Assembly (NCBI GenBank): GCA_027296185.1
Contig: JAPUJL010000117.1
Span: forward strand, 1 to 7,411
Direction of reading: 5' to 3'
Source of the DNA: SAR324 cluster bacterium
GTDB taxonomy: Bacteria; SAR324; JACQKK01
Length of the DNA stretch: 7,411 nt
Notes under the pieces: generated by a model
Database searches by the model: none
What the model saw: the letters and a program-made list of their open reading frames with translations, nothing else
Told to the model about the DNA's origin: nothing
Shown here: in pieces, positions 2,278-3,138 of the stretch
Numbering within the stretch: position 1 is the first letter of the stretch
Layout: every line of letters begins with the position of its first letter
Made by a program: the position numbers and the translations under genes

Positions 2278-3138
2278 TCATCCGGGGTTCTGGTCCGTTG
2301 GAGTCTCGATCGGCAAGTCCTGCCGATCCCCCCACTCTTTCCACGACCCAATGAAGTTGTGTAACTTCTCGTAGCCCAGCAATCGCAGGGCCAGATAGGC
2401 GTGGGAAGAGCGGTACCCGCCCTGTCAAAATGGCACGATGGCTTTGTCGCCCGTAATGCCCACTCCCTCGAACAGCGCCGCCAGCTCTTCCTTCGGCTTG
2501 AAGCGGCCCGCGTCGTCCAGGTAATGCAGCCACTCCAGGTGTACGGCACCGGGGATCGTGCCGCCGCGCTTGGCCCTCACGTTGCGGGCGTAGTACTCGT
2601 CGTCGTCGCGGGTATCGAGGAGCACCATTCCTTCCTCGCCGAGGCGTTGGTTCAGCGCATCCGCCGAAATGAAGATCGATTCTCGGGGCTGAATCTTGAA
2701 GGACTTGGGCTTGGGCGCCGTCATTTCCCGCGAAACCTCAAGCCCCGCCCTCCGCCAGGCCGCGAAACCGCCGTCCAGCACGTGGACATCGGCATGGCCC
2801 ATGTATTCCAGCAGCCAGAAGGCCCGGGCCGCCCGGTTACCGGAGGTCTCCTCGTACGCGACTACCGTGCGATCCATGCCCACGCCGCGCAGGGCGAACT
2901 GGGAACGCATCATGGTGATCCACTCGCGGAACAGCTCGGGCGTGGTGCGGGTGAGCCCCAGCCCGTACAGGTCGAAGTGCACCGCCCCGGGAATCCACCC
3001 AGAGGCGGCCAGCTCGTGTGTCGGCCGCACATCCAGGATCACCAGATTCCCGTCTCCCAGCCGAGCCTGAAGCGCCTCGGGCGTGATTAGCAGGTGTCCG
3101 TTGGGAAAGGCGTCATGTCCCGTCATCGCGTTATCCAT
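2278..3138 (-). CDS. Selenocysteine-containing two-domain rhodanese (sulfurtransferase)
   Basis: Read through an internal TGA, this gene encodes 286 residues, the normal size for a thiosulfate/3-mercaptopyruvate sulfurtransferase. The N-terminal rhodanese domain (about 15-135) shows LVILDVRPTHEL (32-43), GWIPGAVHFD (47-56) and VLDGGFAAW (120-128). The C-terminal domain (about 155-275) shows VLLDTRDDDEY (172-182), IPGAVHLEW (195-203), then AIVPF-[TGA]-QGGYRSSHAYLALRLLGY and finally NFIGSWKEWGD. The TGA at 2427-2425 (residue 238) replaces the catalytic cysteine that carries the persulfide in active rhodaneses, and there is no other cysteine in the protein. The frame stays open for 48 residues and ends at TGA 2280-2278. 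Selenocysteine is therefore the best reading; a nonsense mutation or sequencing error at TGC/TGT is the alternative. The sulfur donor cannot be read from this active-site loop. The ATG overlaps the aminopeptidase stop by 8 nt; an alternative start is Met5 (3126). Confidence 0.85.
2374..2424 (-). promoter_or_regulatory. Candidate SECIS region downstream of the TGA
   Basis: Bacterial Sec insertion needs a hairpin in the mRNA just after the UGA. Counting from the base after UGA, three structures can be drawn. (a) AGGGCGG (2-8) pairs with CCGCUCU (12-18), loop GUA: stable, G first in the loop, but very close to the UGA. (b) CAGGGC (1-6) pairs with GCCCUG (34-39), extended by GGGUA (7-11) with UAUCU (28-32) using two G-U pairs: right overall size, but no G opens the 16-nt apical loop. 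(c) GCCC-U-GC (34-40) pairs with GC-U-GGGC (45-51), loop GAUU: good loop, about 40 nt from UGA, slightly farther than the commonly quoted 16-37 nt. I cannot decide among them by hand. Confidence 0.4.
2425..2427 (-). other. In-frame TGA at the catalytic Cys position, probable Sec codon
   Basis: This TGA interrupts an otherwise uninterrupted rhodanese frame at codon 238, within AIVPF-x-QGGYRS. Homologues have cysteine at x. Conserved family sequence continues on the far side, including the GSWxEW segment typical of the C-terminal end of rhodaneses, so the downstream part is coding. TGA is used as a normal stop by neighbouring genes (epimerase, Smr-type gene), and Trp is TGG, so a changed genetic code is not the explanation. 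Confidence 0.8.

Follow-up and report, generated by a model that had tools for sequence, protein, structure and literature searches.

A two-domain rhodanese with a probable selenocysteine at its catalytic position in a SAR324 cluster bacterium and its relatives

A 7,411-nt stretch of DNA from a SAR324 cluster bacterium, referred to here as the window, carries a gene for a two-domain rhodanese (2278..3138, minus strand; 286 codons plus stop) that can be read through an internal TGA. The TGA encodes catalytic position 238, which is very likely read as selenocysteine (Sec), and the predicted product is a selenium sulfurtransferase; we hold this reading as a whole to be highly probable. A preliminary description had proposed a probable selenocysteine rhodanese, and the proposal is supported by conservation of the TGA and by a tRNA-Sec gene in the same genome, insertion of Sec at codon 238 being very likely on these grounds. 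Rhodanese selenoproteins are not a new family, having been predicted since 2005. As far as our searches show, what is new is the genome-level extent of the family, the lineages in which it occurs, a Cys-free form, two types of hairpin following the UGA, and probable cases of a Sec-to-Cys change.

The reading frame, its product and database copies

The rhodanese frame opens with ATG at 3138 on the minus strand, meets TGA at 2427-2425 (2425..2427, minus strand), which is codon 238, and continues in frame for 48 codons (2281..2424, minus strand) up to a second TGA at 2280-2278. The 48 codons hold the active-site loop and the C-terminal part of the catalytic domain. Frame and alignment thus bear out two earlier statements, that the internal TGA occupies the catalytic Cys position, codon 238 of the loop UQGGYR, and that family sequence continues for 48 codons beyond it.

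With the TGA read as Cys, the 286-residue protein matched PF00581 in two stretches (125.7 bits versus a cut-off of 22.2; 1.1e-36). Alignment of the read-through product with a Cys-containing rhodanese, which had been proposed as a check, gave the expected result: the Azotobacter vinelandii enzyme 1e0c aligned over residues 9-278, and codon 238 fell on its catalytic Cys, the first residue of CQTHHRS. A structure predicted from nine aligned sequences (mean pLDDT 90.1) placed a strand at 233-237, a loop at 238-241 and a helix at 242-253. By alignment and by predicted structure the protein is a two-domain rhodanese, with its putative catalytic nucleophile opening the active-site loop of domain 2.

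To describe selection beyond the TGA we used 41 post-TGA codons of the six full-length orthologues from the window's taxonomic family. In the rhodanese frame 192 codon differences were synonymous and 84 nonsynonymous, whereas the two shifted frames gave ratios of 28:235 and 8:251. Amino-acid identity was 86.3% after the TGA versus 66.7% in the 41 codons before it. These post-TGA codons are under purifying selection, in the rhodanese frame only.

Standard gene calling had been predicted to truncate such a protein ahead of its active site, and this proved correct for many database entries. A protein database search returned 4766 proteins at 1e-20, and codon 238 was tallied in the 120 matches listed: 40 of them end exactly one residue before this codon, 80 carry Cys at it, and none ends elsewhere. 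This is a practical error, since one third of the 120 nearest listed proteins are stored without an active site. One of the 40, P0001, differs from the window protein by three residues, ends at the same codon and may come from the same species. The end of P0001 at this codon and the TGA in five other genomes speak against a sequencing error.

Conservation of the TGA and its exchange with Cys codons

Across 118 distinct aligned loci codon 238 is TGA in 91, TGC in 21 and TGT in 6, with no other codon present; the loci were chosen by similarity to the window and include many close kin, so that they are not randomly sampled and do not amount to 118 independent events, and the 91:27 ratio of TGA to Cys codons describes the stronger matches to the window, weaker ones, some with an internal TGA, having been left out. 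Loci on the same contigs were counted once (L022 = G002:C316; L023 = G001:C72; L137 = L062). An in-frame UGA that exchanges with Cys codons only is the pattern expected of a bacterial selenoprotein. The same 91 TGA genes terminate with TAG in 50 cases, TAA in 26 and TGA in 15; the internal codon is therefore not chosen like a terminator.

The window's taxonomic family is represented by 10 genomes, the window's own included, and a full-length orthologue was present in six (G000, G001, G002, G005, G006 and G008). A seventh copy (L075, in G007) is cut by a contig end ahead of codon 238 and was left out, and no close orthologue was found in G003, G004 and G009. It had been suggested to search related genomes for TGA at the same codon, and Cys in all close relatives had been named as one of the outcomes that would speak against Sec; we looked for the latter and found the opposite, TGA in all six full-length family orthologues.

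The codon is also found at greater distance. In the phylum of genome G090 we searched 84 genomes, and TGA is present in 66 of the 69 with a match, making the predicted Sec form the rule in some lineages. In the phylum of genome G188 it is found in 16 of 18 genomes, and one gene each of G099, G283 and G145, which by their group codes lie outside the G090 phylum, the G188 phylum and the window's phylum, has it as well. The TGA rhodanese spans at least four bacterial phyla. Of the 16 G188-phylum genomes that have a TGA copy, 12 carry a Cys copy at another place in the genome, as G188 does with L062 and L072. Such pairs of Sec and Cys copies within one genome offer a natural paired test of Sec versus Cys.

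These data bear on the simplest alternative, that the TGA does terminate translation, the gene either making a 237-residue product that lacks the active site or being a decayed pseudogene. Database gene calls do stop at the codon in 40 of the 120 matches listed, and neither SelA nor SelB was found in the window's assembly. A stop or a decaying gene is at odds with the 192:84 excess of synonymous differences after the TGA, confined to the rhodanese frame, and with the 118 loci, where neither TAA nor TAG occurs at the codon and exchange is with Cys codons only. We give this alternative hardly any credence, and Sec at codon 238 remains the preferred reading.

A quick tree was built from the part of the protein before codon 238, using 120 of the 237 available rows; it is unrooted, carries one kind of support and leaves out P0001. 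The window clade (47 rows, SH-aLRT 100) comprises 6 TGA genes and 39 proteins that stop short of the codon; nested among them are two Cys proteins, P0002 and P0008. Changes between Cys and the other states numbered 7 over the tree, or 5 when only well-supported branches were counted, versus 40.1 with shuffled labels. The position of P0002 and P0008 inside a clade of predicted Sec proteins suggests a Sec-to-Cys change, its direction being inferred from the unrooted tree. A 2026 review calls such a change rare.

Selenocysteine machinery and RNA structure after the UGA

The assembly of the window's genome has 547 contigs that total 2.73 Mb, at 73.6% completeness. It contains a tRNA-Sec gene whose anticodon is UCA and whose discriminator is G73 (64 bits; gathering score 47). 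Searches of this incomplete assembly gave neither SelA nor SelB, and its single SelD-like match scored 52.1 bits, below the cut-off of 125. The preliminary description had pointed to sel genes in the same genome as a test, and of these the tRNA-Sec gene is clearly present. Within the family SelA is present in 8 of the 10 genomes and SelB is over the cut-off in 7, and three genomes (G002, G006 and G008) hold the TGA rhodanese together with SelA, SelB and tRNA-Sec. SelB was also over the cut-off in G090, G188, G099, G283 and G145, the outside genomes in which the TGA was first seen. Of 22 genomes examined with ARAGORN, 20 have a tRNA-Sec, among them these five outside genomes and the 10 family genomes without exception; the discriminator is G73 in every case. 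The Rfam tally had been 21 of 22 and was lowered to 20, the match in G082 (L104) being a tRNA-Trp by ARAGORN. The Rfam tRNA-Sec model scores this tRNA-Trp at 50.3, above the gathering cut-off of 47, so a match over the cut-off is by itself no proof.

The identity of the tRNA bears on another alternative, in which UGA is read as cysteine by a UCA-anticodon tRNA-Cys of the selC* type and the product is an ordinary Cys rhodanese. Such tRNAs have been described in other bacteria (PMC7609411), and position 238 is the Cys position in relatives. Yet the one UCA tRNA found in the window's genome has G73 and not the U73 that PMC7609411 gives for tRNA-Cys, all 20 ARAGORN tRNA-Sec genes share this G73, and FdhA genes that have an in-frame TGA together with standard SECIS hairpins occur in G006, a family member, and in seven genomes of the G090 phylum in which the TGA rhodanese is present as well. 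We consider decoding as cysteine very improbable and retain Sec as the predicted residue.

In the bacterial SECIS model presented in PMC13188914 the loop measures 3-9 nt, has a G among its first two nucleotides and lies 16-37 nt from the UGA; the stem has 4-16 bp, and the energy is -7.5 kcal/mol or lower. The same review notes that some bacterial selenoprotein genes do not conform to the model, which we therefore treat as usual, not obligatory. It was satisfied by 19 of 19 TGA genes from G099, G283, G145 and the G188 phylum, and by none of the 27 Cys genes. These 19 genes share a standard 7-bp hairpin like ACCGUGC-GGC-GCACGGU, with the loop 17 nt after the UGA. Two of its pairs are changed on both sides: pair 14-30 is A-U in 16 of the 19, U-A in two (G283 and G145) and unpaired in one, and pair 19-25, G-C in 18 genes, is U-A in G099. 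The hairpin greatly exceeded synonymous recodings in stability, with a mean z of -3.33 (16 genes) and -3.03 (3 genes), and the 27 Cys genes averaged 0.10.

In the window gene a contiguous-stem scan found no hairpin fitting the published model. By stem energy the model was satisfied by none of the six family genes and none of the 66 G090-phylum genes, and a laxer SECIS rule admitted one of the six and none of the 66. A relaxed scan revealed a weak element in the window, 31 nt away, at -7.2 versus the limit of -7.5, and elements 33-35 nt away at or below -7.5 in four of the six family members. In the same scan -7.5 was reached by 24 of the 66 G090-phylum genes, 3 of the 27 Cys genes, 16/16 and 3/3 of the standard-type rhodaneses, and 8 of 9 FdhA controls (9 of the 13 FdhA loci tried had a TGA site).

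The window family and the G090 phylum have in common a hairpin much closer to the codon, AGGGCGG-NUA-CCGCUCU at nt 5-21, with the U of UGA as nt 1; in the window it reads AGGGCGG-GUA-CCGCUCU (2407..2423, minus strand). All 7 pairs form in the window, 5-7 in the six family genes, and in the G090 phylum all 7 in 56 of the 66 genes and 6 in the remaining 10. Codons under the hairpin vary little in this phylum: Ser +6 is TCT and Tyr +4 is TAC in 66/66 genes, and codons +1 to +10 show little synonymous variation (p 0.003). The mean z versus synonymous recoding was -2.76 (22 of the 66 genes sampled). The signal in the window family is weak, with z of -1.7 for the window, a family mean of -0.94 and -0.62 for the 27 Cys genes, and synonymous constraint just after the TGA was not significant in the six family genes (p 0.46). 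Cys genes themselves form 4-7 of the 7 pairs, because the amino acids dictate many of the bases; three of these genes (L216, L074 and L069) have z from -3.0 to -2.3, and low synonymous variation at +1 to +10 was seen in Cys genes too (p 0.024, 3 columns). RNAalifold applied to the family and G090 genes returned nothing beyond the proximal hairpin, whole or in part, and covariation was slight; an Rfam scan of the window gave no family at its gathering score. The proximal hairpin of the window is thus a candidate atypical SECIS only.

One of the Cys rhodaneses, L069 (G148, near 5595), lies beside G090 genes in the tree and has all 7 proximal-hairpin pairs (z -2.28). The full hairpin may be left over from a Sec codon that has since been lost.

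A more far-reaching reading, to which we attach a modest and decidedly minority probability, joins the hairpins to the function of the enzyme. One family would use two unrelated SECIS types, the standard one (GGC loop, 17 nt) in some phyla and, in the window clade and the G090 phylum, where FdhA has the standard type, a proximal one that begins 1 nt after the UGA, has an NUA loop 8 nt off and is accepted by SelB. The product would be a Cys-free sulfurtransferase with an obligate selenosulfide, using selenium for sulfur transfer and not for redox chemistry.

Proposed chemistry, known relatives and gene context

In the mechanism that we propose, tRNA-Sec, whose gene is in the window's genome, and SelA and SelB, seen only in close relatives, would insert Sec at the UGA, and structure just after the codon would help insertion. 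Thiosulfate, mercaptopyruvate or a persulfide, for example, may donate a sulfane sulfur to the selenolate in the UQGGYR loop; the sulfur would stay there as a selenosulfide, Enz-Se-S-, until a thiol outside the protein accepted it. Sulfur-transfer chemistry through a persulfide or selenosulfide is inferred from the family, and an outside acceptor is envisaged because the window protein has no cysteine to resolve the intermediate. It contains none at all, and the same holds for the family orthologues L057 and L058; Cys counts of the other orthologues include frame upstream of the start. In a Cys-free enzyme Sec would be the sole chalcogen nucleophile, which makes a testable question of why selenium is used for sulfur transfer.

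Sec could also be inserted into a protein that is not a sulfurtransferase and has a redox or selenium-carrying role, such as peroxide reduction or perselenide delivery. A redox role is expected for the majority of uncharacterised predicted selenoproteins according to PMC9312934, and in 62 of the 66 G090-phylum TGA genes a Cys two residues before Sec (CYU) could form a selenosulfide. Against this, the two-domain rhodanese frame and the active-site loop are kept, its nearest relatives, solved folds included, are sulfurtransferases, and the window protein and two family orthologues lack Cys. We regard such a role as unlikely and prefer sulfur transfer. The CxU rhodaneses of the G090 phylum (62/66; L147-L176, L177-L212 and L061 included) might form an internal selenosulfide; the motif is absent from the window.

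The best solved match to the window protein both by sequence (1.1e-41) and by fold (TM 0.82) is A. vinelandii rhodanese 1e0c, which has its CQxxxRS loop at the same place as UQGGYR but differs in having Cys where Sec is predicted, at 34% identity overall. E. coli SseA, a 3-mercaptopyruvate sulfurtransferase (NF008557, 1urh), is the best NCBIfam match and has the same fold, although the window protein scores 112.6 bits, below the cut-off of 250. The loop of SseA is of the CG[S/T]GVT type, whereas the window has UQGGYR. The profile NF041203 (rhodanese_LYCAU; form 3, CxU, in PMC13188914) likewise describes a rhodanese-related (seleno)protein, but the window protein scores 58.1 bits, below its cut-off of 115, has PFU and not CxU, and consists of two domains in contrast to the 126 positions of the profile.

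Rhodanese selenoproteins had been described as reported from metagenome surveys, and the literature agrees. The Sargasso Sea study of 2005 reports 3 predicted selenoproteins of a 'rhodanese-related sulfurtransferase' family, COG2897 (PMC1088965), and the Global Ocean Sampling survey 8 sequences of a rhodanese selenoprotein family, cd01449 (PMC2398784). Two reviews list the COG2897 rhodanese among predicted selenoprotein families (PMC9312934 and PMC13188914), and the latter, from 2026, names a form 4, the UxxG rhodanese, citing the Sargasso Sea study. Form 4 is a rhodanese-type sulfurtransferase with Sec, a UxxG motif (UQGG in the window) and many Cys homologues; unlike it, the window clade lacks a SECIS fitting the published model. 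UxxG by itself would suit form 2 in that table as well (COG0607 in PMC9312934); it is the two-domain type that points to form 4. By motif and domain type the window protein belongs with the COG2897 UxxG selenoproteins, whose published members were compared by description only. In the literature searched no rhodanese selenoprotein is announced as characterised, and searches that paired selenium or sulfurtransferase with lineage names (SAR324, Lambdaproteobacteria, Rokubacteria and others) gave nothing on the window's protein.

Finally, a shared operon was considered as a clue to function and rejected. The gene for PepA, an M17 leucyl aminopeptidase (3131..4579, minus strand; PF00883), has a stop that overlaps the rhodanese ATG by 8 nt, and it adjoins the TGA rhodanese in 4 of the 5 other family loci (L057, L058, L059 and L060). 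A gene for a TerB-domain protein adjoins the rhodanese on the other side (1644..2045, minus strand; PF05099) and is kept in 4 of these 5 loci as well (L056, L057, L059 and L060). The pepA and terB neighbours hold within the family only. Apart from a distant argD-like match (L073), the window's other genes were not beside the rhodanese in the outside-family loci compared, and ten outside-family neighbours that were scanned differ (MatE, MoeA, NMT1 and others); since neighbours differ outside the family, context does not name the substrate. Farther along the window, a 117-residue reading frame (4825-5178, plus strand) has no NCBIfam match, and a gene at 5175-6710 (minus strand) encodes a protein of 511 residues that matches CDP-alcohol phosphatidyltransferase in two stretches and looks like two enzymes of this kind fused together.
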